From assembly GCA_937861115.1 (NCBI GenBank), contig CALMBD010000169.1, forward strand, positions 1 through 53,424: a DNA stretch of 53,424 bases, in the 5' to 3' direction. The first letter of the stretch is position 1. Every line of letters starts with the position of its first letter. This document shows positions 34,824-50,992 of this stretch, in pieces. The notes beneath the pieces are model-generated. The model was given only the letters and a program-made list of their open reading frames with translations, searched no databases and was not told the origin of the DNA. The DNA is from an uncultured Bacteroidota bacterium. Its GTDB lineage: Bacteria; Bacteroidota; Bacteroidia; Chitinophagales; Saprospiraceae. A program made the translations under genes and the position numbers.

Positions 34824-35585
34824 ATGATGTTAACAGACCCTCCCTGGACTTTTCCGCCCGATGAATTGATGCTGAACACCTCATCCGTGCATGTCTGGTT
34901 TGCCCCCCTGGATGTGGAAGATACCCGCCTGCAATTTTATAGGGCGACACTTTCTCAGGATGAGCGCAGGCGGGCAGAAAAGTTCTCCTTCGACCTGCAT
35001 CGCACCCATTTTATTGTCGGGCGCGGAATATTGCGGCATATTCTGGGACGCTACCTGTTCGTGGCGCCGGACTCGATTCGTTTCGAATACAATGCTTTTG
35101 GAAAACCATCCCTTGAACTGTCTCCGGGCAGGGCTCCATTATATTTTAATATGGCCCATTCCAATGATTGTGCGCTGTTCGCTTTCACTCTCGACGGAGC
35201 CGTCGGGGTGGATATTGAATACATCCGCGATGATATTCAGATAGAACAAACCGGAGCACTGGTGTTTTCAACCGGCGAACTGGCGGCACTCGGGTCGATC
35301 CCGCCAGAGCGGCAACACCACACTTTTTTCAAATTCTGGACACGAAAAGAGGCCTATATTAAAGGTGTAGGCCAGGGATTAACAATGCCCCTGCGCCAGT
35401 TCGATGTGCGCCATACACCGGAACAGCCCGTTCGGTATGAAGGGGAGGCGATGCGCTCATTTCAACCGAACGACTGGTTCGTTCGCGATATTGATTTGAC
35501 TGAAGCGTACTGCGCTGCCGTTGCCATGCAAGGCCGCGCATGGGAGGTGTCAATGTTCCGGCTACCGGATGTGTACCCTTTTTAA
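34824..35585 (+). CDS. pfaE: Sfp-type 4'-phosphopantetheinyl transferase (PfaE-like)
   Basis: The protein has 253 aa from MMLTDPPWTF (ATGATG, so 34827 is also possible). It moves the phosphopantetheine arm of CoA onto ACP serines. Motifs: VGRGILRHILG, FGKPSLEL, FNMAHSND (P1-P2), GAVGVDIEYIRDD (Mg-binding D-x-E) and FFKFWTRKEAYIKGVGQGL (WxxKEA). Length fits the Sfp class. It is convergent with the enoyl reductase gene, sharing 24 bp at the 3' ends (35562-35585). It is the only PPTase in the window and the natural activator of the three ACPs of the adjacent PUFA synthase. Confidence 0.92.
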   Translation: MMLTDPPWTFPPDELMLNTSSVHVWFAPLDVEDTRLQFYRATLSQDERRRAEKFSFDLHRTHFIVGRGILRHILGRYLFVAPDSIRFEYNAFGKPSLELSPGRAPLYFNMAHSNDCALFAFTLDGAVGVDIEYIRDDIQIEQTGALVFSTGELAALGSIPPERQHHTFFKFWTRKEAYIKGVGQGLTMPLRQFDVRHTPEQPVRYEGEAMRSFQPNDWFVRDIDLTEAYCAAVAMQGRAWEVSMFRLPDVYPF

Positions 35586-37202
35586 CGGGGCCTCAACCTG
35601 AATGCCGTGCATGGACAGGTATTGCAACCGGCTCAGATAAGCAGCGCCGTGAAGCATCTGGATGGCCACGTCCGCAACCCGGCGTTGTTCCCAATCTTCC
35701 AGTCGCGATCCTTTTACCCATTGATTGAATGCCCCCATGGCCGGGCCGCACCATATCTGGTAATCCAGTTCGCGTCCCGGCTCTCCGCGGTTGGCCCAGG
35801 CCGACGACAGTCCCAGGTACCAGCGAAACACCAGTGCCATCTTGCGTTTGGGATTGTTCTCCGCCCGCACAATTTGCTCAGGGTCGCGCTCCTGGAAAAA
35901 TGCCACGCAATGTTGCCAGATTTGATCGAACGGTCCGCGAAACAGGTTCTTTTCCAGGTTCAGCCTGTCCTTTTCCGGAATGTCCATCCAGTTATCATAG
36001 GCCAGGTACAGGTCGAGCAGTTTTTGGGCACGCAACCCAAAGAGTGTCCCTTTTTTCAATACCTGCAATTTGACACCCATCTCGAACATATCTGCAGCAG
36101 GCGCCATGATCGTATCGGTCATATCTGCCTGGGCGAGCACCTTGCGCACATGGTCGGAAGAGCCCGACTCCCGGCAGGCCTGGTTGATGGAGCCGGTGAC
36201 AACATATGCGGCGCCCATCGAATAGGCGGCCAGGGCAGCCTCCGGCGTACCGATGCCGCCTGCTGCGCCCACTCGCACCGGTTCGGGAAAATTGTATTGC
36301 TGCTGTATCTGGTCGCGCAACGTCACCACTGCGGGCAACAGGCATACCAGCGACCGGTTGTCGGTATGGCCGCCGGAGTCGGCCTCCACCGTGATATCGT
36401 CGGCCATAGGCACCCGGGCGGCCAGGCGTGCCTGCTCGGGTGTGATCATGCCCGTGTCCAGCAATGGTTGAATAAATGATTCCGGAGCGGGCCGCATGAA
36501 CTGCGCCGCCACCTCCAATCGGGAAACCTTGGCGATGATGCGGTGGCCGATATGTACGGAACCATCGGCATTTTCGCGCAAGCCGGCCAGCCTGTACCGT
36601 ACGACGTGTGGCGTCAGCGCCAGAAATGCGGAGGCTTCTATCACGCGCACGCCCTTGCGCAGGAACAATTCCACGCCTTCCCGTTCCAGGGCCTCCTCGC
36701 TGGGACTGTGTATCAGGTTGACGGCATATGGTCCATCCGGCAACGCTGCCTGGATGGTATCTATAGATGTCTCGACCCGACTGAGCACCAACCCGCCTGC
36801 ACCGAAAGCCGCCAGCATGCCGGCCTTGCCCAGGGCAATCACCAGTTCGGCGGAGGCAATACCGTTGGCCATGGCGCCTGCCATATAGTTGTATTTCAAT
36901 CCATAGGTACGACGGAACGCAGGGTCGCCCAGTTGTTCGGGCTGAAAAGCGGGCAATGTGGCGATGAGTTCCATGCGCGCCAATTCTGCCGGATTGTCGG
37001 TGCCGATGCTGTCGGCAACACCGATCTCGCCCGACTCCTTCCGAACGATAAAACAGCGGGCGTCCAGGTTTTCCAGTATCCTGCGCATGCCGTCCGCCGT
37101 GAAGGCAAGGGCCCCCGGCCGGCCGAACCACCTGGCAGAGCCCGGAGCTTGCGGAAACGAAAAGCCACTGGATACGGCCGGTGTGGTAAGTGTATCAGTC
37201 AT
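35562..37202 (-). CDS. pfaD: PUFA synthase enoyl reductase (PfaD-like)
   Basis: The protein has 546 aa. It is an FMN-dependent TIM-barrel enoyl reductase of the PfaD/nitronate-monooxygenase-like family that reduces selected double bonds during PUFA assembly. Visible features: an N-terminal PfaD cap (ARWFGRPGALAFT ... DNPAELARMELIATLP), LKYNYMAGAMANGIASAELVIALGKAGMLAAFGAGGL, VTVEADSGGHTDNR-type FMN/active-site region (ITVEADSGGHTDNR here), VRVGAAGGIGTPEAALAAYSMGAAYVVTGSINQA, and the PfaD-specific tail with DYQIWCGPAMGAFNQWVKGS. It starts 10 bp after the KS-CLF-AT-DH-DH gene. It is the last gene of the synthase operon. Confidence 0.95.
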   Translation of the reverse strand: MTDTLTTPAVSSGFSFPQAPGSARWFGRPGALAFTADGMRRILENLDARCFIVRKESGEIGVADSIGTDNPAELARMELIATLPAFQPEQLGDPAFRRTYGLKYNYMAGAMANGIASAELVIALGKAGMLAAFGAGGLVLSRVETSIDTIQAALPDGPYAVNLIHSPSEEALEREGVELFLRKGVRVIEASAFLALTPHVVRYRLAGLRENADGSVHIGHRIIAKVSRLEVAAQFMRPAPESFIQPLLDTGMITPEQARLAARVPMADDITVEADSGGHTDNRSLVCLLPAVVTLRDQIQQQYNFPEPVRVGAAGGIGTPEAALAAYSMGAAYVVTGSINQACRESGSSDHVRKVLAQADMTDTIMAPAADMFEMGVKLQVLKKGTLFGLRAQKLLDLYLAYDNWMDIPEKDRLNLEKNLFRGPFDQIWQHCVAFFQERDPEQIVRAENNPKRKMALVFRWYLGLSSAWANRGEPGRELDYQIWCGPAMGAFNQWVKGSRLEDWEQRRVADVAIQMLHGAAYLSRLQYLSMHGIQVEAPLKRVHIR

Positions 37203-37212
37203 TTGATCGTTT

Positions 37213-40200
37213 TTATTGGCCGGAGCCGATTAATACAGCCAGGTCGGTCACTTCATAGATACGCAGCGTCCCTTTCCACAAACTGGCATCTGCCGTCAGC
37301 ACCACGCCGTTTTGCTCGCGTTTTATGTCTTTAATATGTGCTTCCAGGTGCATCTCCGGATCGTGTTGCAGGATTTGCCCCCGGTATTTCCACACCGTAC
37401 GGTGCGGCGCCACCTGCCAAAACCCTGCGTTGTGCAAATCCGCCCCAAGCCCCTGTTGCAGGGCAAATAACTGTATGGCCTCGAAGATGGCTTCCACACC
37501 CAGCGAACCCGGCATAACGGGGTCCTGGTAAAAGTGACAGGTGAAATACCAGTCGTGCGCTTTTACAATTTTACTGGCGTAAATATAACCTTTACCGTAT
37601 TTGCCGCCCTCCCGCACGATCGTGGCACTATCGAGGAAACGAAGTTGCCCGCCGGCCAGGTGTAACTGCAGCGATGCCGGATTGGTCGACTGGAACAGTT
37701 TCATCTTTCCAAACAGCGAATCGAGTTTTATCGTCAGGCTGTTGCCCGCAGCGTGGGCGTTTTCCTGAAGCCACGATGGCTTGTGCTGGCCCTGATCGAG
37801 GCCGGCCTGGCTCGACAGGTCGTCTTTGGTAAAGAACCCAAAAGAGGAATTGCCTTTGTAAAACGGCGCGTCGTCGACCGACAACTCAAAGGTATAGCGC
37901 TGCAATACCGTGCCGCCCAGACTGGTGTGGCTCACCAGGCAGGCGCGATTGGTCACGGTTTTACCACGCAGGTCGACCCTTCGGAGCATTTCGCCGTCGC
38001 CGTCAAGGTTGCGGAAAAACAGGTCTTTTTCAGAAGCCGCCAGGGTGCTGCCCAGATAGGCGCCCAGAAATCCGCAAGGCTGCAACGCAACCTCCATCAA
38101 AACCGAATATGGCATTTCCGGCACGGCATTTTGGGTATAGTACCAGGCATCTGCGGGTACGTCGTACTCAGCGACAATCACAGGCTTGTTGTGGAACACG
38201 TGGCGCTGGCCTTCAATGGCACGTACCCGTGAAATGAACTGCAGGTCGGTATTGGGCTGGCGTGACAGTTGCCGGCCCTCAAACACCCTGTATTCATCGC
38301 CAAAACATTTGTAGACCGGGCCGAGTGCAAACTGGGTGATGTGGTATTCATCGAGCAACACGGGATAGTCGACAGGTTTTACAAATATGCCTTCCCGGAG
38401 TTGCGCCGGATTTTTCAGCCAGGTCGGGTTGTCCTTTTCCTGCAAGCGCAAGCCGAGGTTTTCAAAAAATACCGCGACGTACCCGTCGTATATGATTTCA
38501 AGGTCGGCAACCACATACGGCTCGGGCGCCAGACCGATGTCTTTCACATCCATGCGGTAGATCAGGGTGCCTTTTTTGGCAGGCACTTCCTTTCGGCAAC
38601 GTACTTTTTGCGGCACATCGAGCACGGGCTGGAAACGCGCATCTTTGGTAAGCCTCTGCATGCCCAGGTAGAGCATGAAGAAACGCAGCAACTGGCCGCC
38701 GCCTTCGGCCTGTAATGAACCGGCCAGCACCTCGTCGTCGCGGAAATGACAGGGGAAGTACCAGTCGTCGGGAAGCAGGTCTTTTTCGGCTTCGATCCAG
38801 CCCAGTCCCGCGCTGCCGCCCTGGCGATCAACTTTGGTGATCCTGTCCAGCATCAAGATCTGTTCGGGGGGCAGGCGCAGCGATGGATTGCGATCGGCCG
38901 GGTGATATGCTTCACCAAAACAATTCACCAGGTCGCCGCGAATGAGCGACATCAGGTCTTCGTGTGAAAAGGCGGTTTTGTCGCAATAGAGCAAGGGCGC
39001 AAAATACTGCCTGGCCCGGCCCTGTCGCTCGGCCAGTTCCTGCGGTTTATACACAACCCCCTGACCGACAGCCAGTTCCTCGTCGCTGAAAAAGCCGGCA
39101 CATCCGCCGTCCATCTTCAATACCATCCGGTCTTCCACAAAGCACTCATAACTGAAGAAAAACAGCAGGTTGTTGCCACTGCGCACAAAACTGTTGATCC
39201 GGATGTCGTATCGCAGGGTCTGCCCTTCAAACGGAAGGTCGTCGAGGAACGTCAGGGTGCAATCCAGCAGGCGGTATACATAATCGCCCTTGTTCTGGAA
39301 ATCGATGCCCAGGTAACTGATCAGCAGCAGGTCGCATTGTCCCGACTCCACGGCAACTGCCCAGGGAATCTGGCCGTCTGTTGCGAAAGCCGATCCATAG
39401 GGAATATCGTATTCCGTGGTGACCAGCGAGGGTTTGTATTCATTCATCCGTGCCTCCAGCCGGGTGACCCGGCTGACCAGCAGATAAGGCGGCATGGGCA
39501 GCATTACCCGGCGGCGGTAATGGTCAATGACGGCGTAATCCGGGCCGAACACATCGCTGATCCTGCCGGTCGCGAAGGTCAGCAGGTCGTTTTCGTCCCA
39601 AATCACCGTTTTGCCCTGACGGTAAGCCGGATCGCTGAAGTCCTGCAAAGACAACCCGTTTTCGGCTTTTTTCAGGTCTTTTTTATCAATTGTAGTGATT
39701 TCCATGGTCAAGTGATTGGAAATAGCCGGAGGGCCCGGTTGGGACTCCGGTGCTGTGAATCCGGTCCAGGCATCGTCCGGTCCGGCCAGGGCCAGCGAAG
39801 GCGTTGCAACGCGGGCAAGGGTGGATTGCCTGATGGTTTGCCCTGCAAAAAGGGCGCGCTGTGCCTCGCCGAGCGCTGCCGTCTCGAACCGCGGCCCGCC
39901 GGTGCGCAGCGTTTTATTCAGTTCTTTTGGTTTGTTTCGTCGGGCCGACTCCGGTTCGAAGAAGTGCTTCAGGTCGAGCGGGACCTCATGTGCGAGCAGC
40001 ACGGCAACCAGTCCGCAAAGGTTGCGCAGCGCACCGGCGCCTTTCCTGTCGGCGGGGATAGCCAGGTGTTCCCGTCCGGGCAGGTTTTCTCCGATCCAGC
40101 GGGAGCAGGTGGCATTTGCGCCCAACTCGATAAATATCCGGTGCCCGTCGGCTGCCATTTTGCGCACCAGACGGGGAAAATCGACCTCCCGGCAACACAC

Positions 40201-43200
40201 TTCGGTGGCGTTTTTTGCAAGCGACTCCGTGTCAACAGGCATGGGGCCGAGGGAAATACTGGAATAAAATGCCTTGTCAGCCGGGTGTTCAACAGGCAGT
40301 CGGTGCATCTCCATGAATGCCTCCTCCTCTTTCCGGCAAAAGTCGTGGTGCACGACGTTGTTGAGGGCAAGGTGAATATTCGGAAAAGGGTGCTGCTGCA
40401 GGATTCGGTCTATTTCAGCCGTATCGCCCGACAGCACGATCTCCGTATCGGTATGAATAAAGGTGAGGAATACTTTTTCAGCGGAAGGCGCTATGGCTTG
40501 CCTGAACCATTCGGCCAGCGAAGCATGTCCGGCAATGCCGTTTGGCGCTGTAACCAGACGTGCCGACCAACGCTTGCGTGCCGCTTCGGGTGTCAGGTTC
40601 CATAATTCTGCCAGCAGTGTCATGTCGCCGCCGACCTTTTCCCGGAACAATGGCGCGTTGATGAATTTTTCTTCTGCCCGGTGCGCATCCCAGATGTCCT
40701 GTCCATACCACATGGCGCTGGTTTCGCCCATGCTGAACCCGGCAACCGAGTCAGCCTGAAACTTAAGATAATCCTGCACCAGTACGGTAAATACCGCGGA
40801 AAAGGTGCAGCCGATAGCCATCATGGGCAAGGCATTGGTTTGAAGAGCCAGTTCTGCTGCCTTTTTGCCGGCGGTATCGAGTGCCTGCAGGCTGCGCGGG
40901 TACAGGTCGGCGCTGAAAAAAGCGCCGGATAAATGGTTGACGCGGCTTTTTACGGCATCATACAGACCCGGGAATGCCTGAAAAAGCGCCGACCCCATTC
41001 CGGTATAAACGGTTCCCGAACCGGGGTAAACCAGGGCCGTTTTACCTTTTTTACCCAGCGGGTCTGCTGTAAAATAACTACCCGACGGGGTTTGCAGGGT
41101 TTGTCCGCCCGCCCAGGCTTCGGTCAGCCGGTTTTGGAAAAACTGAACTTCACGGCGCAGGGCCTGTTCCGATCCTGCTACCAATACTGCCGTATGCGTA
41201 CCGACGCCGTTTTGGCTGGAAAACCGTTCGCAATATTCGTCGGAAATACGTTGAAATGTTTTTTCGGTCAGTTGATCGGGGATACCAGCCAGTTGTTCAA
41301 TCAATTCCGTTGCACTGGCTGCCCGAACCGGGAACAGGCGTTCGCCGCCCTTCAGTAAAAAGGGGCCTGCTTTGGCCGGGTTGGGATGATGTCCTTCCGA
41401 CAGCAGCACATGTGCGGCGGTCCCGTCGGAAGCCAGACCACTGACAGCAGCCCGGAGTACCGATTGTCCCTCTTCGGGAACCCAGGGGCGTGCCTCTTCA
41501 GGCACGTAGAAAGGCGTTGTGTCCAGCGAGTCCGCCGCTCGCGGCTTTTCCCAGCCCGGCACACCCGGGATAAAACGGTAGTACAGGCTAAGGGCCGTTT
41601 TTACGATCGATGCCATGCCTGAGGCGGAAAAGCAGTGCCCGACATGCGCCTTGGCGCTGCCTACTGCGCAATTGAGGGATTCCTTTTCCAGTCGATAGGC
41701 CCGGCCAAGTCCCTCCATTTCTGCCATATCTTCCTCCGCAATGCCGCTGGCGGAAACCTCCAGCATGCCAATATCTGCGGGGCTTAATTGCTGTCGCGAC
41801 AGTACCATACGGGCAGCATCTTCAATGGCCCCGGCGCTCGCTTTGCTCCGCAAGTCATTGTGTTCCGTCTGTACGATCGCCAGATCGTCGAGGTAAGCAT
41901 ACACACGATCCCCTTTCGCATCCACAGCGCGTTTCAGGACTACAGCCCCGGCGCCTTCGCCGATCAGCCAGCCCTTTGTGGAAGCATCCCAGCCCATTGT
42001 CGCGGGGCCGGTATGTACCGGGTTCAGAGCCTGGCGACTGAGCACGCTTTCCAGACTTCCGCTCAGGTCGATGGCGCCCAGCACTACCGCATCCACTTCA
42101 TTCATTGCCAGAAGGTTGCGTGCTATTTCAAGTGCCTTGTATACGGCGTTTTCATTGGATGAGACGGTAAATGCGGGCCCGGTAAAATCCATGAGCGCAG
42201 CAATCCTGCTCGAAATAATATTGCCGATAAAACCGGTATGTTCGCTGGGCGAGTGGTCGTCGTATGCCTGAAAAATGGCGTCTTTAAGCGCGCCACCGAG
42301 CGCCGCTTCACTGGCATCACTCAATTGGAGGCCGGCTTGTTCGACCGCCTTGTTCACCTGCCACGACAGATCCCAGCGGCCCATACGGTGGTGTATCTCC
42401 AGTTCGGATTCCATGGCCGTGATAACGGCTACATTGGCCGGGCCGTCCTGATCGGTATCCATTCCCGCATCCTGGAGGGCGTGGTAGGCGACCTTCAGCA
42501 TCAGGGTTTGTTGCCGGGTCAGCCGTTCCGCCTCGCGGGGCTGTATTTTGAAGCGCAGCAAATCCAGATCGTATGCCTCCAGCCATGCGCCCCGCAATTG
42601 CCGGACATCGGGAAGGTCGAAGGTTTCATGTAATCCCTTGAGTTGGTCCATGCCCTTCCAGCGTTCCTCCGGAAGTGTTCTGAAATGCTGGCGACCTGTA
42701 AAAAGGGACAGGTAATAAGCCTCCAGGCTATCGCAGTTGCCGAAATGAACATCCATGCCCACAATGGCCATTTGCTGGGTCGCAACAGGAATAGCCGGAG
42801 CCGGAGCAGGGGCTTCCTGCTTGTTGTATCCCGAAAGGATCAGGTGGGCATTGGTGCCGCCGAAGCCGAAAGCATTGATCCCGGCGTGTAGTTCAGCCCC
42901 TTTGTTTTTCCAGGGCCGGTTGTGTAAAACGATCTGATCGGCGCCGATTTTACTGTTATCCGAGCGCAGCGGTGCAGAAACCTTGATGGTGGCAGGAATC
43001 AGCCGGTGCTGCATCGCCAGAATGACCTTGATCATACCGGCCATACCGGCGGCCGTCAGCAGGTGACCCATGTTCGACTTGACCGAGCCAACCAGAGGTG
43101 GCTCCATGCCGTCGCGGGCAAAAAAATCGCTGATGCTGTTGAATTCCGTTTTGTCGCCCAAAGGGGTGCCGGTCGCGTGGCATTCGAGATAGTCCGCCGC

Positions 43201-44184
43201 CTCCGGACGAAGGTCGGTCTGGCTGTATGCGCGTTCAAAAGCCAGGCGCTGGCCCTTCGGATTCGGACTGAGCAGGAATTTTCCCTTGCCGTCGTTGGAT
43301 AAACCGACGCTTTCGATGACAGCCAGCACCTGGTCGCCATCGCGTTGTGCGTCCGAAAGCCGTTTCAATACCACCATGCCCGCGCCTTCGGCAGAGGTAA
43401 GTCCGCCGGAACGCAAGTCCATGGGGGCCGAAACCTCGTTTTCCCGGGCATACGCATGGAAATAGGAAAATCCCATGTGGATGAACAACGGATCGGCGCC
43501 ACTCACCGCGCCCGCCAGCATAATATCTGCTTTGCCTGTGTGCAGTTCGTCACAGGCCAGTTTTACGGCGTACAGACTGGAGGCACACGCCGCATCGAGT
43601 GAATAATGGGTGGCCCGAAGTCCGAGTGCCCGGGCGATGAGCGCCGCCGGCGCATTGGTGAGCAGGGTGTTCCGGATATCGGCGGGGTAATGGGTATTGC
43701 TTGCCGGTACCTTAACCTCCTGCCCGCTCAGTTCCTCCAGCACCTCGCCGGCCATACCGGCATACACAGGGGACAGTATCTGTCGGGATAAGCGCGTCGG
43801 AAAGGAAAGGTTGCCGACGATCACCCCGCATTTTTCCAGGCCCGGGTGCTCATAATAGCCGCTGGATTGCAGTGCTGCCCTGGCGACGTACAGCGACCAT
43901 TTAAACTGGTTGTCTTGCCGGTTGAGCAGATCTGCGTCGAGGCGGTAGCCCCTGGCGTCGAAGGTAAAATCACGGATAAACCCGCCCCGCAGCGCGTAGC
44001 AGTGGTCGAGTTTGCCTTTTTCCTCGTGGTAAAACAAACTAGGGTCTGCTCCGAAATCTTCGAAACGGGCCGTGGTGACCAGGTCCTTGTTACCAACGAG
44101 GTTTTCCCAGAACTGCTCCAGCGTTTCCGAACCCGGGAATAACCCGCCCATGCCGATCACCGCTATTTTTTCTTTTTTATACAT
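37213..44184 (-). CDS. pfaC: PUFA synthase subunit KS-CLF-AT-DH-DH (PfaC-like with embedded AT)
   Basis: The protein has 2323 aa from MYKKEKIAVIG, 2 bp after the KR-DH stop; an ATG four codons upstream (44196) would overlap it by 10 bp. Domains: KS with DAACASSL (Cys200), ECHATGTPLGD, SNMGH and FGGTNAH; a second KS-like chain-length factor from about 460 in which the Cys position is Asn677 (TVSSNENAVYKA); an acyltransferase with GFSMGE (Ser1151); and two FabA-like hotdog regions with active His1813 (WYFPCHFRDDEVLAGS) and His2217 (WYFTCHFYQDPVMPGS). Both FabA-like sites have Glu where FabA has Asp (QAEGGG, GVEAIF). Gammaproteobacterial PfaC lacks the AT, which is separate (PfaB). Myxobacterial Pfa3 has it embedded as here but usually adds an AGPAT domain; this protein ends right after DH2, so no AGPAT is present. 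Confidence 0.93.
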   Translation of the reverse strand: MYKKEKIAVIGMGGLFPGSETLEQFWENLVGNKDLVTTARFEDFGADPSLFYHEEKGKLDHCYALRGGFIRDFTFDARGYRLDADLLNRQDNQFKWSLYVARAALQSSGYYEHPGLEKCGVIVGNLSFPTRLSRQILSPVYAGMAGEVLEELSGQEVKVPASNTHYPADIRNTLLTNAPAALIARALGLRATHYSLDAACASSLYAVKLACDELHTGKADIMLAGAVSGADPLFIHMGFSYFHAYARENEVSAPMDLRSGGLTSAEGAGMVVLKRLSDAQRDGDQVLAVIESVGLSNDGKGKFLLSPNPKGQRLAFERAYSQTDLRPEAADYLECHATGTPLGDKTEFNSISDFFARDGMEPPLVGSVKSNMGHLLTAAGMAGMIKVILAMQHRLIPATIKVSAPLRSDNSKIGADQIVLHNRPWKNKGAELHAGINAFGFGGTNAHLILSGYNKQEAPAPAPAIPVATQQMAIVGMDVHFGNCDSLEAYYLSLFTGRQHFRTLPEERWKGMDQLKGLHETFDLPDVRQLRGAWLEAYDLDLLRFKIQPREAERLTRQQTLMLKVAYHALQDAGMDTDQDGPANVAVITAMESELEIHHRMGRWDLSWQVNKAVEQAGLQLSDASEAALGGALKDAIFQAYDDHSPSEHTGFIGNIISSRIAALMDFTGPAFTVSSNENAVYKALEIARNLLAMNEVDAVVLGAIDLSGSLESVLSRQALNPVHTGPATMGWDASTKGWLIGEGAGAVVLKRAVDAKGDRVYAYLDDLAIVQTEHNDLRSKASAGAIEDAARMVLSRQQLSPADIGMLEVSASGIAEEDMAEMEGLGRAYRLEKESLNCAVGSAKAHVGHCFSASGMASIVKTALSLYYRFIPGVPGWEKPRAADSLDTTPFYVPEEARPWVPEEGQSVLRAAVSGLASDGTAAHVLLSEGHHPNPAKAGPFLLKGGERLFPVRAASATELIEQLAGIPDQLTEKTFQRISDEYCERFSSQNGVGTHTAVLVAGSEQALRREVQFFQNRLTEAWAGGQTLQTPSGSYFTADPLGKKGKTALVYPGSGTVYTGMGSALFQAFPGLYDAVKSRVNHLSGAFFSADLYPRSLQALDTAGKKAAELALQTNALPMMAIGCTFSAVFTVLVQDYLKFQADSVAGFSMGETSAMWYGQDIWDAHRAEEKFINAPLFREKVGGDMTLLAELWNLTPEAARKRWSARLVTAPNGIAGHASLAEWFRQAIAPSAEKVFLTFIHTDTEIVLSGDTAEIDRILQQHPFPNIHLALNNVVHHDFCRKEEEAFMEMHRLPVEHPADKAFYSSISLGPMPVDTESLAKNATEVCCREVDFPRLVRKMAADGHRIFIELGANATCSRWIGENLPGREHLAIPADRKGAGALRNLCGLVAVLLAHEVPLDLKHFFEPESARRNKPKELNKTLRTGGPRFETAALGEAQRALFAGQTIRQSTLARVATPSLALAGPDDAWTGFTAPESQPGPPAISNHLTMEITTIDKKDLKKAENGLSLQDFSDPAYRQGKTVIWDENDLLTFATGRISDVFGPDYAVIDHYRRRVMLPMPPYLLVSRVTRLEARMNEYKPSLVTTEYDIPYGSAFATDGQIPWAVAVESGQCDLLLISYLGIDFQNKGDYVYRLLDCTLTFLDDLPFEGQTLRYDIRINSFVRSGNNLLFFFSYECFVEDRMVLKMDGGCAGFFSDEELAVGQGVVYKPQELAERQGRARQYFAPLLYCDKTAFSHEDLMSLIRGDLVNCFGEAYHPADRNPSLRLPPEQILMLDRITKVDRQGGSAGLGWIEAEKDLLPDDWYFPCHFRDDEVLAGSLQAEGGGQLLRFFMLYLGMQRLTKDARFQPVLDVPQKVRCRKEVPAKKGTLIYRMDVKDIGLAPEPYVVADLEIIYDGYVAVFFENLGLRLQEKDNPTWLKNPAQLREGIFVKPVDYPVLLDEYHITQFALGPVYKCFGDEYRVFEGRQLSRQPNTDLQFISRVRAIEGQRHVFHNKPVIVAEYDVPADAWYYTQNAVPEMPYSVLMEVALQPCGFLGAYLGSTLAASEKDLFFRNLDGDGEMLRRVDLRGKTVTNRACLVSHTSLGGTVLQRYTFELSVDDAPFYKGNSSFGFFTKDDLSSQAGLDQGQHKPSWLQENAHAAGNSLTIKLDSLFGKMKLFQSTNPASLQLHLAGGQLRFLDSATIVREGGKYGKGYIYASKIVKAHDWYFTCHFYQDPVMPGSLGVEAIFEAIQLFALQQGLGADLHNAGFWQVAPHRTVWKYRGQILQHDPEMHLEAHIKDIKREQNGVVLTADASLWKGTLRIYEVTDLAVLIGSGQ

Positions 44185-44186
44185 GG

Positions 44187-46688
44187 CTATTCCCATTTCA
44201 AATCGCGGCTGATGGTGACACCTGCCCGGTGACTTTTCATATAAACGATCCCTGTTGCGGCATCGAAGGCCGTGATATCAGCCTCCATGGCAAAATCATC
44301 GGATTGTACCACACGCAATGAAACATAAAAGGGCCTGCCAAACGGCAGCGGCCCGTAAATATCCACCCATTCTGTGCGCAGCGGTAAGCAGGCGCAACCC
44401 TGAAAGCGACGGACCCAGATCAAAAGGCCCTGGTACATCACGTCGGTCAGGTATGCGTTGACCTGTTTCACCGGAAACTGCCCCTGGCGTTCCGGTGCAA
44501 TGCCCGGGTGCTCGCACAGGAGCAGCGTACCGGCCTCATTCAGTTCAAGCACTTGTTTTACCCCCTGAAAATCAGTGCCGTGAAAAAGGGTGCCGTCGGT
44601 GTATACCGATGCGGCATCTGCCAGAACGGGAGTGATATTCCGGGTATCCGGCAAGGTTTCCAGCGGCGCAGGCGCAGGCTGGTCGCCAAGGGTAATGAAT
44701 GCCTGGAAGTGCTGCACCGGCAATTTCAGCCCGGCGTCGGAACTGATATTGACCTGTACATGAATCCGGGTGTCGCTTTTTTCCAACTCTTTGACAGTCA
44801 GTAAGTATTCGTCGGGTTGTGTGCCGTCGAAAACGATGCCTTTGAACAATTTGACCTTCTCGGCTTTCCGGACATAAAAGCCGGGGTACAACGCGGCGGT
44901 CGATTGAACCATCCAGGTCGATGCGTGGATGATCGGCAACACGGCATGACCCTGTATCACATGGTGCGCTAAAAAAGGATTAGCCGTTTCCAGCAGTCGC
45001 CGGCTGATCCGGTAGGTTGCGAGGGGGCCGTCTGTCAGGGCGCGGGCCATGGGCAGGGTGCCGCCCAGAATGACCTGCGTTTGTGATTCGAAGGCCGTGC
45101 TGAGTTGATCGATCAATGCGAGTGGTCCCTCGGAAGAAGGTACCAGCGCGACTCCGTGTGCTTCGAAAACTTTTTTCAACTCCGGGCTGACCATGCCGGC
45201 ATCCCAGGCGCCCCAATTGATTGAAACAACCTGAATTGCCGGGTGATTTTTCCGGAACAGGTGCGCAATGCGGTTCAGGGCCTCGTTAGCCATGGCGTAA
45301 TCTGTCTGTCCGACGTTGCCGTAAAAGCCTGCTACGGAAGAAAAGAGCACAACGTGCCGGATGGCTTCGATATCGACGGCCTGCGTGACAGCCAGCAGAC
45401 CCTGGATTTTGACATCATAAACGGCGTCAAAGTCGGCTTCTGTTTTGTTCTCGATGCGCTTGTCGGCCAATACGCCGGCCCCGTGCATGATGCCGGTGAT
45501 CTTGCCGCTTTGCACGGTAATGCGGTCGAGCGCGCTCCTGAGGGCGCCGGCGTCGGTCACATCGGCGGCTTCGTAGAAGACGTTGGCGCCTTGCCGGCGG
45601 ATGAAGTCGAGGCTTTCCAGGATTTCGCGTTGCGCCAGCACGGCGCCCGTCATCCGCTGAATGGTCCTGGGCAGCGGTTTTTCACCCCTGGCCTGAAGCG
45701 CTTCCATCGCCTTGCGCTTTAATATCCCGGCATCGGTAATGCCTTGCGCCCATTCGGGCTCGGAGGTTTCCAGCGCAGAGCGACCAAGCAGGATAAAAGT
45801 GCATTTGAATTGTGTTGCCATGGCACGCACGCATTCAGCCGTTACCCCGCGCGCGCCGCCGGTTACCAGGAAAACGCTGTCCCGGTTAATGGTGGAGTTC
45901 AGCGCCGGCATTTCAGCAACAGGCACTGGCTCGGCAACCAGGGTATGCCGTTGCGCTGTTGCGTTCCAGGCAACCTCGGTCAGGCATTGATCGGCATCGT
46001 ACAGTTCGTTTGCAAGCAGGGTTGCCGCTTGCCCGGACGGCAATTCGGGCGCCAGGTCGACCGCGCGGCAGAAGACGCCGGGCCATTCCAGGTGCAGGGA
46101 TTTGACCAGTCCGGGGAGGCTGCCGCCGAGTGGCGCAACGTTCCCGGGGTTTTGGACACCCAGAGCGCCATCCAGCCTGGATACGGTCATGAAAGCGGTT
46201 CTATGCTGATGCGCAGTGCTGTGCAGCGGCGCTTTGAGGTGTTTGGCCAGGAGGAACACGGCACGCAGCAGCGTTTTCTCCCGATTGAACTGCAGGCCCA
46301 GTTGACCCAGCGGAAAACGCAGGTGCGGGTGCAGGTAAATGAACCGGGCAACAGGTTCTGTGAATTGACCGATTATTTGCCCCAGGGTTTCGTCGCGGGT
46401 ATCGGGCAATGTCAGTTCCGTCGTGCCTTCGGGCAGACTTTGGGCGCCTTTTCGCACGAGGTCTTCCCCAAACGACAACACCACAACCCGGTGACCGCGT
46501 TGCTGCAATGCGCGCACCAGCGCAGCTGTCAGCGCCGTTCCTTCATTGGTGACCAGCGTGAGGCCCGTCGCCGGTATATCGAGTTGGTCCGGTTCAGGCA
46601 GGTAGCGCAGGGCTACCATCGAGCGCGGGACATTGGGGTATGCTCCCCCGGCATATTCTGTAATACCGGGAGCAGGCGACGCCTCCAT
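44187..46688 (-). CDS. PUFA synthase KR-DH ORF, -1 frame continuation of pfaA
   Basis: The ORF has 833 aa. Residues 1-265 include a structural Rossmann half (GLTLVTNEGTALTAALVRAL). The catalytic ketoreductase has VTGGARGVTAECV (NADPH loop, about 274), HGAGVLADKRIENKT, FSSVAGFYGNVGQ and YAMAN (Tyr464). From about 560 a PKS-type dehydratase hotdog carries HVIQGHAVLP (His576, the HxxxGxxxxP motif). In usual PfaA/Pfa2 proteins KR-DH is fused behind the ACPs. Here it is a separate ORF starting 11 bp after the pfaA stop, in the -1 frame, and the frame between is stop-free. It may be made mainly as the C-terminal part of a frameshift fusion, or independently from ATG 46688, which lies inside a predicted hairpin and has no SD. 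Confidence 0.9.
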   Translation of the reverse strand: MEASPAPGITEYAGGAYPNVPRSMVALRYLPEPDQLDIPATGLTLVTNEGTALTAALVRALQQRGHRVVVLSFGEDLVRKGAQSLPEGTTELTLPDTRDETLGQIIGQFTEPVARFIYLHPHLRFPLGQLGLQFNREKTLLRAVFLLAKHLKAPLHSTAHQHRTAFMTVSRLDGALGVQNPGNVAPLGGSLPGLVKSLHLEWPGVFCRAVDLAPELPSGQAATLLANELYDADQCLTEVAWNATAQRHTLVAEPVPVAEMPALNSTINRDSVFLVTGGARGVTAECVRAMATQFKCTFILLGRSALETSEPEWAQGITDAGILKRKAMEALQARGEKPLPRTIQRMTGAVLAQREILESLDFIRRQGANVFYEAADVTDAGALRSALDRITVQSGKITGIMHGAGVLADKRIENKTEADFDAVYDVKIQGLLAVTQAVDIEAIRHVVLFSSVAGFYGNVGQTDYAMANEALNRIAHLFRKNHPAIQVVSINWGAWDAGMVSPELKKVFEAHGVALVPSSEGPLALIDQLSTAFESQTQVILGGTLPMARALTDGPLATYRISRRLLETANPFLAHHVIQGHAVLPIIHASTWMVQSTAALYPGFYVRKAEKVKLFKGIVFDGTQPDEYLLTVKELEKSDTRIHVQVNISSDAGLKLPVQHFQAFITLGDQPAPAPLETLPDTRNITPVLADAASVYTDGTLFHGTDFQGVKQVLELNEAGTLLLCEHPGIAPERQGQFPVKQVNAYLTDVMYQGLLIWVRRFQGCACLPLRTEWVDIYGPLPFGRPFYVSLRVVQSDDFAMEADITAFDAATGIVYMKSHRAGVTISRDLKWE

Positions 46689-46724
46689 TGTCCCGCTTGT
46701 TACTTTTTTCCGCCAGTCACCTCC
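46625..46724 (-). promoter_or_regulatory. Putative programmed -1 ribosomal frameshift signal (dnaX-like)
   Basis: Read on the minus strand. An SD-like GGAGGTGA (46724-46717) is followed, 10 nt after GGAGG, by the slippery heptamer A AAA AAG in the pfaA frame (46709-46703) and then the TAA stop (46702-46700). After a 6-nt spacer, GCGGGACA-a-TGG (46696-46685) pairs with CC-a-ATGTCCCGC (46636-46625), 11 of 12 positions. An inner stem GCTCC-CGG (46673-46666) pairs with CCG-gg-GGAGC (46651-46642). Slipping back one base at the heptamer gives GTA ACA AGC GGG ACA ATG, in frame with the KR-DH ORF. All three elements known from E. coli dnaX are present with normal spacing. The alternative is a one-base deletion in the A run. 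Confidence 0.6.
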
Positions 46725-49700
46725 GACACTGCACCTGCCTTGCCGGCGATGTACACCACGATCTGCTGGAGGGTGCGCAATTCGGCGAGTTCCTGCGGGT
46801 TGATGCCCTGCACTTCGGGATGTGCGGCGGTCATGGCGCCGAAAATTTCGACACGTTTGATGGAGTCAATGCCGAGGTCAGCCTCCATATCCATGCCCAT
46901 TTCCAGCATTTCGGCAGGGTAGCCGGTTTTTTCAGCGATGACGGACAACAGGGTCGTCTCGATTCTGGATTGATCGATACCCGTTGCCGGCTGTGCGACC
47001 GGAGGAGGGGGAGCAGCCGGTTGCTGCATTGTATTCGCCGGAGGGGGCGTTGCTGCAGGAGCGGCCACTTGCGACGGCGCCCCGGCTTTGCCGGCGATGT
47101 ACACCACGATTTGCCGGAGGGTGCGCAATTCGGCGAGTTCCTGCGGGTTGATGCCCTGCACCTCGGGGTGTGCGGCGGTCATGGCGCCGAAAATTTCGAC
47201 ACGTTTGATGGAGTCGATGCCGAGATCGGCCTCCATATCCATGCCCATTTCGAGCATTTCGGCCGGATAGCCCGTTTTTTCGGCGATGACCGTCAGTAGC
47301 GTTTGCTCGATTTTCGATGAATCTATACCTGGCGCCGGTTGCGGTGCGGCCGGCGGCGGGGGAGCGGGCGCTACGGGTTGGTGCGTGCCGTTGGTCGGCG
47401 GCGCTGCAACGGTTGGAGCAGCCGCCACCTGGACTGTGGCGCCTGCCTTGCCTGCGATGTACACCACGATTTGCTGGAGGGTGCGCAACTCCGCGAGTTC
47501 CTGCGGGTTGATGCCCTGCACCTCGGGGTGTGCAGCGGTCATGGCGCCGAAAATTTCGACACGTTTGATGGAGTCGATGCCGAGATCTGCCTCCATGTCC
47601 ATGCCTATTTCGAGCATTTCAGCCGGGTAGCCGGTTTTTTCAGCGATGACCGTCAGGAGTGTTTGCTCGATTTTCGAAGAATCGATACCCGTCGCCGGCT
47701 GCGTTGCCGGCGGGGCAACCGGAGCGGGTGCCGGGGTCTGGTGTGTTCCGTTGACGGGCGGGGGAGCGATGGCTACCGGTGGCGCTGCCGGAGGTGGCGG
47801 GGCGGATTGAGTCGTTTGGTATGTTCCGTTGCTCACCGGCGGCAGGTTGGCAGGCGCCGCTGCTTGTGCAATCACCGGCGCTGCGACCTGTGGCTGGGAC
47901 AATTTTTCCAGCAGGGCCACTACCTGACTTTGCTGTTCGTTCAGGCGTGTGAGTTCTGCCTGAATTTTTTGTAAAATTTCTATTTCCTGATGAGACATAG
48001 TTTGATCGTTGCCTTCCGCTGCCGACTGCGCCAATCCGGGCGCGGAAGTGTTTTGAGATGAAATGATTGCTGTTTCGGTCGCTTGTGTGCTGTGATCCGC
48101 AGTAAAGCGCTGCTTCAGCGCCTCTTCGTATTTCAGCGCCGTGGCGTCGGAGACGAAATTGTTTCCGCTGATGCGCACGTTCATACCCTTGACCGCTGGT
48201 TTTTCCCTGTGCGGAAGGGCGTACCGGTCGAAATCCTGAACCTGAATGCCCAGCACGGCCAGTTGCACGGCGGCTTCCTTGAACTGTTTGTCGCTGTCTT
48301 TCTGCGGATTGGAATTCAGGGCGATGGCGATATGCGGTTTGCCTTGCAGTATCTCCCGCACGAGGTTGGTCAGGATATTTCGTGGACCGAATTCGACAAA
48401 AACCCGGCCGCCTGCCGCGTACATGTTCTCGATTTTTTCCTTGAACAGCACCGGCTTTAACATGTGACCTGTGAGGGTTTCCTTCATTTCCCGGATATCA
48501 GACGGGTAGGCATTCCCGGTAGTATTGGAAAAAACCATTTTAGAGGCCACGTTAAAATTGGCCGATTGTATCGCCGCAGCGAATGGCTGATGGGCGTGGG
48601 CGACAAATGGTGTGTGAAAGGCCGCCGATACCGGAAGCAGGGTGGCGATGAACCCTTTTGCCTGCAATTGCTCCTGCAAGCGGACAAGGCTTTCCGTGGC
48701 GCCGCCCAGAATGACCTGGGTGCCCGAGTTGATATTGGCCACCTGTACGTCTGGCAAACCTGCAATTTCCGCCCGCAGGGCTTCAAAATCGGATTTAACT
48801 GCCAGCATGGCCCCGGAATCACCCTCGCCGGACAAGGCCATGGCTTCTCCACGGGCTTTGGACAGGGCGTAGAAGGTAGCGTCATCGAGGACGCCTGCCG
48901 CCCATAGCGCGGTCAGTTCCCCGTAGCTGTGTCCGGCATAGAAGTCGGCGGCAAAACCCGCTTCTGCCAGCAGCCTGTACATGCCGGCGCTCAGGGTGCC
49001 GATAGCCGGCTGGGCAAACTGGGTATTGGTGAGCCGTTGCTGTTGTGTTTTCCGGTCTTCATCATTAAACACCGGAATAGGGTACACCATATCGGTCAGC
49101 GGTTGCAGCCCGCTCGCCTCAAAAACCGAGTTGATGTGGCGGAACGATTCGCGTATGGCCGGGTAAGTACAGGCCAGTTCGCGGCCCATATTGACGTATT
49201 GAGCGCCCTGGCCTGCAAACAGCGCCACAACCTTCTGGTCGTGGCCGATAGCCGACTGGCGGTACCAGATGCCGGCGATGGGATGTTCCCATTCCGGGTG
49301 GCCCGCTTTATCCGTCAGCAATTTGAGAGCGGTTTCCAGCTTTTGCCGGGCTTCCGCTACGGATGAAGCCACAAAGCCCAGGCGCGGATTCAAAGGCGGA
49401 ATATGGCTTTTGGCCGACTGAAGCGCCAGTTGGCGAAAAGGTTCGGTTGCGGTGTCGTCCTGCAGCGATGTCGCCCATTCGCGGCACAAGCGGTGGAGTC
49501 CTTCTGCTGTGGTATCATGCAGGAGGATCAGGCGGTGAATCGTATCGAGGCGGTAGGGAACCTGATGCTCCTGCTGCTGTTCCTCCATTGCGATGTGGAG
49601 GTTTACGCCGCCGAAACCAAAGGCGCTGACCCCGGCCCGGCGCGGCGTCTGGCTTGATTTCCGGAACCAGGGGCGCGTTTCGGAGTTGATGTACAGGGGT

Positions 49701-50992
49701 GAGTCGGCCAGGTGCAGGGCGTCGTTGGGGCGCGTTACGTTGATGGTTCCGGGCAGTACCTTGTGGTACAACGCCAGGGCTGTCTTGATCAGCCCGGCTA
49801 CACCTGCGGCAGCCTTGGTATGGCCGATTTGCGATTTTACGCTGCCCAGTGCGATGTGGTGCAGGGCCGGGTTTTTCCGTCCGAAAACACCTTTCATCGA
49901 TTCCGCTTCGGAGGGGTCGCCGGCGCCGGTACCGGTGCCGTGCGCTTCCACCAGGCCGACGGTGGAGGCATCAAATCCCGCTTCGTCGTAGGCGCGCTGC
50001 ATGGCCAGGGCCTGGCCCTGGGGGCGCGGGGCGTATATGCTCTTGTAGCGGCCGTCGCTGGAGCCGCCGATACCTTTGATGACGGCATAAATGCGGTCGC
50101 CGTCGCGGATTGCATCGTCGAGTCGTTTGCACACGACCATGCCAACACCTTCGCCGATCAGCATACCGTCGGAATCCTGGTCGAACGGCCGGATGCTGCC
50201 TTTTCGCGAAAAGGCGGGCGTTTTGCTGAAACTCATGTACATGAACGGCGAGTTGTCGGTATCTACGCCGCCGGTGATCATCATATCGCAGTTGCCTTCG
50301 ATCAGTTCGCTGATGGCCATCCTGGTGGCGCTGAGCGACGCCGCGCAGGCGGCATCCACGACGCTGTTGAGTCCGCCGAGATCGAAGCGATTGGCGATCC
50401 GGCCAGCGATGACGTTGCCGAGCAGTCCCGGAAAGGTGTTTTCCGTCCAGGGAATATACGCCGCCTTGATCTGTTCTATGATCTGCTCGATCTGTTTCCC
50501 GGGCAGGCCCTGCGCTTCGAGCGCTTTGCGCCAGACGGGGTATTGCAAACGCGCGGTAAGCGGGATGATCATTTTTTGTCCGCCGCCCACGCCGAGGATG
50601 ACGCCGGTTCGCTCGCGCAAAGCTGCATTGAACCGCTCCGAGCCAGGGGCATACCCGGCATCGAGCAGGGCATCGCGGGCCACTGCAAGGCCGAGCAGTT
50701 GGGAGGCGTCGGTGGATTCGAGCAGGTTCGGCGGCAGGCCGAACTCCATCGGGTTAAAATCGATTTCCGGTAAAAAGCCGCCTACCTTGCAGTAGGTCTT
50801 GTCGGGAGCAAAAGGATCCGGATCGTAATAATCGTCGGCATTCCAACGATTGGGCGGCACCTCCCGTATGCAGTCGATGCCCTGAACGATGTTTTCCCAG
50901 TATTGCTCCAGATTTTCTGCATCGGCAAAAATGGAGGCCATACCGACAATCGCGACTGGGTTTTGCCGGAGAAGAGGATTGATGTCAGACAT
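46700..50992 (-). CDS. pfaA: PUFA synthase subunit KS-MAT-3xACP (PfaA-like)
   Basis: The protein has 1430 aa from MSDINPLLRQNPVAIVGMA; a 14-codon extension to 51034 is open but would leave almost no leader after the likely promoter. Domains: KS (about 8-450) with DAACAASL (Cys216), EAHGTGTGAGDPSE and SQIGH; malonyl-CoA acyltransferase (about 590-890) with FAGQGAQYVNMG and GHSYGEL (Ser689); a short predicted coiled coil (QEIEILQKIQAELTRLNEQQ); a Pro/Ala-rich linker; then three nearly identical ACPs, each with LGIDSIKRVE (Ser1141, Ser1261, Ser1377). It loads malonyl units and carries the growing acyl chain. The ORF ends GGKK-stop right after ACP3, without the KR usually fused here; see the frameshift signal. 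First gene of the synthase operon. Confidence 0.95.
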   Translation of the reverse strand: MSDINPLLRQNPVAIVGMASIFADAENLEQYWENIVQGIDCIREVPPNRWNADDYYDPDPFAPDKTYCKVGGFLPEIDFNPMEFGLPPNLLESTDASQLLGLAVARDALLDAGYAPGSERFNAALRERTGVILGVGGGQKMIIPLTARLQYPVWRKALEAQGLPGKQIEQIIEQIKAAYIPWTENTFPGLLGNVIAGRIANRFDLGGLNSVVDAACAASLSATRMAISELIEGNCDMMITGGVDTDNSPFMYMSFSKTPAFSRKGSIRPFDQDSDGMLIGEGVGMVVCKRLDDAIRDGDRIYAVIKGIGGSSDGRYKSIYAPRPQGQALAMQRAYDEAGFDASTVGLVEAHGTGTGAGDPSEAESMKGVFGRKNPALHHIALGSVKSQIGHTKAAAGVAGLIKTALALYHKVLPGTINVTRPNDALHLADSPLYINSETRPWFRKSSQTPRRAGVSAFGFGGVNLHIAMEEQQQEHQVPYRLDTIHRLILLHDTTAEGLHRLCREWATSLQDDTATEPFRQLALQSAKSHIPPLNPRLGFVASSVAEARQKLETALKLLTDKAGHPEWEHPIAGIWYRQSAIGHDQKVVALFAGQGAQYVNMGRELACTYPAIRESFRHINSVFEASGLQPLTDMVYPIPVFNDEDRKTQQQRLTNTQFAQPAIGTLSAGMYRLLAEAGFAADFYAGHSYGELTALWAAGVLDDATFYALSKARGEAMALSGEGDSGAMLAVKSDFEALRAEIAGLPDVQVANINSGTQVILGGATESLVRLQEQLQAKGFIATLLPVSAAFHTPFVAHAHQPFAAAIQSANFNVASKMVFSNTTGNAYPSDIREMKETLTGHMLKPVLFKEKIENMYAAGGRVFVEFGPRNILTNLVREILQGKPHIAIALNSNPQKDSDKQFKEAAVQLAVLGIQVQDFDRYALPHREKPAVKGMNVRISGNNFVSDATALKYEEALKQRFTADHSTQATETAIISSQNTSAPGLAQSAAEGNDQTMSHQEIEILQKIQAELTRLNEQQSQVVALLEKLSQPQVAAPVIAQAAAPANLPPVSNGTYQTTQSAPPPPAAPPVAIAPPPVNGTHQTPAPAPVAPPATQPATGIDSSKIEQTLLTVIAEKTGYPAEMLEIGMDMEADLGIDSIKRVEIFGAMTAAHPEVQGINPQELAELRTLQQIVVYIAGKAGATVQVAAAPTVAAPPTNGTHQPVAPAPPPPAAPQPAPGIDSSKIEQTLLTVIAEKTGYPAEMLEMGMDMEADLGIDSIKRVEIFGAMTAAHPEVQGINPQELAELRTLRQIVVYIAGKAGAPSQVAAPAATPPPANTMQQPAAPPPPVAQPATGIDQSRIETTLLSVIAEKTGYPAEMLEMGMDMEADLGIDSIKRVEIFGAMTAAHPEVQGINPQELAELRTLQQIVVYIAGKAGAVSEVTGGKK
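46735..47700 (-). repeat. Triplicated ACP-coding repeat
   Basis: Three tandem units spaced 360 and 348 bp apart encode the ACPs. The core of about 80 codons is almost identical at DNA level between copies, with differences concentrated in the Pro/Ala linkers. This is the usual sign of recent duplication or gene conversion. Copy number is at the low end; known PUFA synthases generally have four to nine. Confidence 0.9.

Follow-up and report, generated by a model that had tools for sequence, protein, structure and literature searches.

The stretch of DNA analyzed here, hereafter the window, is a contig of 53,424 nucleotides (nt) from the draft assembly (348 contigs) of an uncultured Bacteroidota bacterium of the Saprospiraceae. 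It encodes the polyunsaturated fatty acid (PUFA) synthase subunit PfaA in two pieces lying in different reading frames, and the junction between these pieces carries a putative programmed frameshift signal. The elements of the junction, all on the minus strand, are as follows.

46700..50992, minus strand: 0-frame open reading frame (ORF) for KS-MAT-ACP3, the N-terminal part of PfaA (1430 aa, from ATG at 50992 to TAA at 46702-46700)
46724-46720, minus strand: Shine-Dalgarno (SD)-like GGAGG, separated from the A6 run by 10 nt
46709-46703, minus strand: slippery heptamer A AAA AAG, the final two sense codons preceding TAA
46625..46696, minus strand: downstream stem-loop, after a 6-nt spacer following the heptamer
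46688-46686, minus strand: ATG in the KR frame, within the hairpin, 11 nt past the stop and absent from the sister loci
44187..46703, minus strand: -1-frame part with KR and the C-terminal region of PfaA (838 aa past the shift)

Read directly in the window sequence, the KS-MAT-ACP3 frame ends with GGA AAA AAG TAA, the run of six As (A6) occupying 46709-46704. The KR frame is the -1 frame and is open from 46865 to 44187 (892 codons from stop to stop), so that a one-base backward slip would enter the KR-DH ORF without meeting a stop codon, and the predicted full-length product would measure 1430 + 838 = 2268 aa. The original prediction, made from the window alone, had described this frame end, GGAGG at 10 nt, the hairpin after 6 nt, the stop-free entry into KR-DH and both product sizes, and each of these points is confirmed. 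Its drawing of the hairpin, with 11 of 12 outer positions paired and an 8-bp inner stem, was roughly right, since RNAfold pairs 46696-46689 with 46625-46632 and continues to 46663/46654, in a shape with 8 + 3 outer pairs, short bulged pairs and an inner stem of 10 bp. This fold has a predicted energy of -42.3 kcal/mol and a z-score of -5.68, none of 200 shuffles being equally good. A search of the junction against Rfam gave just two weak matches, far below the gathering scores. The genome of the window contains tRNA-Lys(UUU); no tRNA-Lys(CUU) was matched by a motif search, although such a search may overlook some tRNAs.

The two frames of the window match two separate parts of a single profile, NCBIfam TIGR02813 (PfaA). 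For the 0-frame ORF, in which Pfam identifies KS, AT and three PP-binding stretches, the best stretch covers profile positions 3-970 of 2582 with 1642 bits (cut-off 1010.1), while the -1-frame part covers positions 1757-2577 with 541 bits, which is below the whole-protein cut-off. In this second part, Pfam finds only KR, which is intact, and gives no match for DH; the presence of a DH is suggested by the match to the PfaA profile.

The organization of the junction recurs in the closest relatives. In a set of 42 genomes of the genus, including that of the window, the gene is found in four at an E-value of 1e-30, and the KR-DH parts of the three sisters are 79%, 73% and 80% identical to that of the window. 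All three sisters keep GGAGG, GGAAAAAAG, a stop and KR in the -1 frame, with GGAAAAAAG abutting the stop in L005/L037 and L006/L047 and one extra codon intervening in L055. The ATG at 46688 is replaced by ATT in L005/L037 and by ACG in L006/L047, and neither L055 nor L047 has an ATG, GTG or TTG as a KR start in that region. Since it is not conserved in the three sister loci, the ATG of the window is probably not the true KR start.

We then compiled junctions from two sources: scanning named genomes with a profile yielded 79 loci, the best among 184 relatives, and a family search found the gene in 61 of 398 genomes. Among the 139 loci examined, 133 had a KR N-terminus, five of these without an ACP in reach, and removal of 47 duplicate junctions left a unified set of 81 unique junctions, of which 58 are split and 23 are fused. 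Ahead of the stop, all 58 split Bacteroidota junctions have an X XXY YYZ heptamer in phase, the longest A run there being A10 in 23, A9 in 20, A7 in 2, A6 in 10 and A3 (as GGGAAAG) in 3. The KR frame is open through the slip site in 58/58 split loci and is in -1 in 57, namely 56 by profile plus L051, which is +1 by profile but -1 by its own match and on recheck, and whose KR match has a length not divisible by three. When scanned from the slip site to ten codons past the KR profile start, the KR frame lacks an ATG in 51 of the 58 split loci and lacks ATG, GTG and TTG altogether in 32. Motif, phase and openness at the junction thus exceed chance, because all of them recur in relatives. The sole split Bacteroidota locus with KR in +1 is L084, after an A9 run, which represents either an assembly error or a slippage variant. 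A phylum-wide search of 395 evenly drawn genomes returned the window together with three matches in long open frames that cover only part of the profile (about 180-535); the latter show no run of at least eight As, but their stretches stop short of the ACP.

The constancy of the frame stands out against several controls. The distance from the stop to KR takes 20 values, of which 18 share one phase, and the KR frame is open in 57/57 loci (L051 left out) versus 7 of 56 loci at -1 for the third frame. The next junction downstream, KR to PfaC, was measurable in 54 of 58 loci, split or fused, that offered enough sequence (44 split and 10 fused). Its phases are distributed 16/14/14 in the 44 split loci, i.e., at random, and 5/3/2 in the 10 fused ones, whereas the ACP-to-KR phase is -1 in 44/44 of the same split loci. 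The phase of ordinary gene boundaries in these operons thus drifts, whereas that of the ACP-KR boundary is fixed. Inclusion of cyanobacterial loci from an order search (gene in 24 of 148 genomes) raised the number of unique junctions to 109, of which 67 are split and 42 are fused. A run of at least nine As is present at 82 of these 109 junctions; elsewhere in the same loci (995 kb, read in coding-strand orientation) there are 7 such runs, and none of at least ten As. Within the run, AAA is kept for lysine in 86/86 loci with a run of at least six, compared with 49.7 ± 4.3 expected from the same genes, a test for which 96 of the 109 loci had sufficient lysine codons and that is partly circular since it is restricted to loci having a run. 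The coupling of the two PfaA halves by frameshifting, which was the core of the original prediction, is therefore strongly supported by the heptamer at all 58 split junctions, the fixed -1 phase at varying distances, the missing starts and the random-phase control.

As for possible stimulators, GGAGG is found 10 nt from the heptamer in 6/6 loci of the group formed by the window, its three sisters and two Spirosoma; as a five-base match it is found in none of the remaining 52 split loci, against a background of 2.0%. An upstream SD stimulator with defined spacing is part of the E. coli dnaX signal, and we propose that GGAGG acts as a stimulator in the window. The earlier suspicion that the SD-like element might be coincidental is thus partly resolved. 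Downstream of the slip site, hairpin z-scores average -1.88 over the 58 split loci and fall below -2 in 25 of them, versus 2/56 (mean z-score -0.13; paired p 3e-5) in a control region inside KR. Within the group of the window, hairpins are strong in the window (-5.28 in this cross-locus comparison) and in L037 (-2.85). In a four-row alignment on the window structure, 67.6% of cells are paired (40/500 shuffles as high), and 5 of 27 hairpin pairs show two-sided changes (10/500 shuffles as high). Conservation of the hairpin in the group of the window appears to be only partial. Of the elements whose conservation the original prediction had proposed to check in aligned relatives, heptamer and stop are kept and the hairpin is kept in part.

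Fused homologues present what looks like the converse situation. A run of at least six As is kept in frame in 36/42 fused loci. Of these, 33 have a -1 stop no more than seven codons after the run, and the remaining L039, L040 and L193 have a +1 stop within two codons. For example, the cyanobacterial A6 genes L195 and L197-L199 have A AAA AAG followed two codons later by a -1 TAG. Such a close stop beside an in-frame run would amount to a mirror image of the dnaX arrangement, which is suggestive only. The nine split cyanobacterial loci are distributed between -1 (six) and +1 (three). In a tree of 103 rows built by a quick method, from which six short rows including L156 were left out, the minimum number of changes is 8 for the split/fused state (starred branches force 3 of them), 11 for the frame, counted with L051 corrected to -1, and 3 for the presence of the run. 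The putative slip site is kept family-wide and would be realized variously, as A6-A7G or GGGAAAG (ribosomal) or as A9-A10 (ribosomal or transcriptional), the predicted long product being in the shifted or the unshifted frame depending on the family member.

Two sets of cyanobacterial genes deserve mention here. The similar genes L222 (the same as L193) and L225 (the same as L191) are A9 fused and A10 split, respectively, and this one-base change in the run would swap the unshifted product. The Komarekiella genome G813 has two hgl-like copies that share A10G at this site (L103/L182 and L183) and one split copy with A9 (L156); in L103/L182 and L183, KR-DH and the N-terminal half of KR are encoded by separate ORFs.

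We consider it very probable that these features reflect programmed slippage, which would yield both a truncated and a full PfaA; for the window, -1 ribosomal frameshifting is its most likely form. A ribosomal shift like that of E. coli dnaX is favored for the window because its A6 run comes with both a hairpin and an SD-like element. Ribosomes would translate KS-MAT-ACP3 up to A AAA AAG, where a fraction of them would slip back one base, aided by GGAGG 10 nt upstream and by the hairpin 6 nt downstream, and would read on through KR and the C-terminal region to yield the 2268-aa PfaA. Unshifted ribosomes would end at the adjacent TAA, giving the 1430-aa KS-MAT-ACP3 protein, and the balance between condensing/ACP modules and reducing modules would be fixed by the two products. 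The sequences show the elements, their phase, the open frame and the conservation, whereas we infer the occurrence of slipping, its efficiency and the purpose of the ratio. The extra ACP-bearing subunits that would arise when KS-MAT-ACPn is made both with and without KR, as either arrangement, split or fused, would allow, could matter, because productivity is reported to grow with the number of ACPs in the accessible portion of PMC5067506.

Several observations weigh against this reading. Relatedness among the loci weakens the raw counts, and the linker past the stop evolves fast, with no clear codon-position bias (38/48/55). The other 33 of the 58 split loci do not reach a hairpin z-score below -2, and a downstream hairpin was accordingly rejected as a general trait of split loci. 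The control in the upstream ACP is also less clear-cut than that inside KR (z-score below -2 in 11/55, mean -0.98; paired p 0.035, weak), strong hairpins are no commoner at short runs (6/15) than at A9-A10 (19/43), and the hairpins of L047 (-0.37) and L055 (+0.24) are weak although these loci belong to the same group as the window. Possible KR starts are offered by the ATG at 46688 in the window and by a GTG 20 nt past the stop in sister L037. The genome of L055, G052, has tRNA-Lys(CUU) alongside UUU. Among fused homologues, the chance of a stop as close as those seen is mostly ~0.1-0.2 per locus and up to ~0.6 in a few, and 6/42 (L180, L186-L189 and L205) have no run of at least six As, which shows that the site is not obligatory; these six presumably make the long protein only. 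L180, from G559, and L205 are on very long tree branches. The tRNA-Lys(CUU) of G052 is L233, and this genome is listed with 7% contamination.

Both proteins could also arise without any ribosomal shift if RNA polymerase slipped on the A run, mixed mRNAs then giving the two products as in Thermus dnaX. The A9 or A10 runs at 43/58 Bacteroidota split junctions fit such transcriptional slippage, as do the mixed phases of the split cyanobacterial loci and the near-sisters L222/L225, which are fused and split one A apart; the accessible portion of PMC5009743 also indicates that runs of nine A or T slip efficiently in bacteria. The run in the window is just A6, however, under the nine or more A/T associated with transcriptional slippage, three split loci have GGGAAAG and no long run, and an SD-like element at fixed spacing in the A6/A7 loci of the window-Spirosoma group suits ribosomes. 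We therefore regard transcriptional slippage as unlikely in the window, while for the A9-A10 loci it is about as likely as a ribosomal shift. Less probable still is that the junction separates two ordinary genes, KR-DH being initiated on its own, independently or coupled, at ATG 46688 in the window. The short distance of this ATG from the stop favors such a start, and split pfaA are treated as separate genes in the portions of the literature consulted. Against it, the ATG is missing in 3/3 sisters and is buried in the stem in the window, most split loci are devoid of an ATG and more than half of any of the three start codons, and the ACP-KR phase is fixed where the KR-PfaC phase is random, with the KR frame open through every slip site. 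Independent initiation of KR was rejected on the absence of a conserved start and on the random-phase control at the next junction.

The original prediction had named a homopolymer deletion as the main rival. The window does come from a draft assembly and the site is a homopolymer, but such an error is made very unlikely by three sister genomes that share A6G near the same stop and by dozens of further genomes. The same layout is seen in records not marked as metagenome-assembled (two Spirosoma and Aureispira sp. CCB-QB1) and in genomes of 2 and 3 contigs (G572 and G690), and the intact KR domain speaks against a decayed gene. Sequencing error, rejected because the same site occurs in many genomes, is hardly tenable for the family, and we give it or gene decay next to no credence for the window.

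The putative frameshift signal of the window resembles that of E. coli dnaX, for which the accessible portion of PMC5009743 describes A AAA AAG, a downstream stem-loop, and short and long products sharing their N-terminus. It differs in that the genes are unrelated and that in the window the long product would be the shifted one, a reversal that, according to the same portion of PMC5009743, also seems to apply to dnaX in some other bacteria. The Thermus thermophilus dnaX, described there as giving truncated and full products from a run of nine A/T, is closer to the A9-A10 loci, unlike the window with its A6 and ribosomal-type stimulators. Cyanobacterial hgl-like (Type F-like) clusters, whose hgl identity is suggested by domain order, likewise have a KR-type region after KS-MAT-ACP, and many of them carry an A10G run at the corresponding site. 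Unlike in the window, the run and the N-terminal part of KR mostly share one frame, and the KR-DH ORF is often separate.

The neighboring genes of the window include two further PUFA synthase components.

37213..44196, minus strand: PfaBC-like gene (2327 aa) with two KS, a weak PfaB (AT) and two FabA stretches
35562..37202, minus strand: PfaD, enoyl reductase (TIGR02814, 678 bits, cut-off 449)

The pfaB_fam stretch in the 2327-aa ORF is a weak match, with 107.8 bits versus a cut-off of 144.3. In Type D pfa clusters, the accessible portions of PMC3098273 and PMC4882568 describe a split pfaA (KS-AT-ACPn and KR) and an AT fused to PfaC. By that published description, which covers Psychroflexus torquis and Aureispira marina (arachidonic acid), the window, with its split pfaA, PfaBC-like gene and PfaD, appears to hold a Type D-like PUFA synthase cluster. 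The published portions present the two pieces of pfaA as separate genes, unlike here, where we interpret the KR frame as the -1 continuation of pfaA.

A full-text literature search returned no report of frameshifting in a PUFA or polyketide synthase among the matches listed, in line with the original prediction, which knew of none. In the portion of PMC3711429 available, the sole polyketide match is a polyketide cyclase cluster, and no fatty-acid or polyketide synthase entry was found, with the terms used, in the accessible portion of PMC5009743. Mechanisms of this kind are known from dnaX; what appears to be new is the gene family, its breadth and the way in which split pfaA is reinterpreted. 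To our knowledge, few examples are known of frameshifting that yields two co-functional proteins from one cellular gene. It is likely, though less so than slippage itself, that the PUFA/secondary-lipid megasynthases of Bacteroidota and Cyanobacteria form a large recoded family, in which dual output (KS-MAT-ACPn by itself and KS-MAT-ACPn-KR(-DH)) would be the selected trait with a repeatedly swapped realization (ribosomal heptamer or long A run, long product shifted or unshifted), the split pfaA of Type D clusters would be one recoded gene and frameshift efficiency would set module stoichiometry in an iterative megasynthase. Frameshifting at this junction would extend such recoding to a biosynthetic megasynthase in two phyla, reinterpret the split pfaA of arachidonic-acid-type clusters, explain the frequent lack of a KR start codon, and make shift efficiency a testable means of probing how many modules of each kind are made and how much fatty acid results. 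Heterologous expression from separately cloned halves could then miss the fused protein.

The three ACP domains sit in a tandem DNA repeat at 46734-47707 (period 360 bp, 2.8 copies, 85% matches). At its other end, KR-DH overlaps the PfaBC-like gene by 10 nt (44187-44196), likewise in L005 and L006, with distance and phase varying in other loci. Elsewhere in the window, a 1973-aa protein encoded at 28425-34346 carries a Por secretion tail along with ten HYR stretches and seven matching FG-GAP_2.

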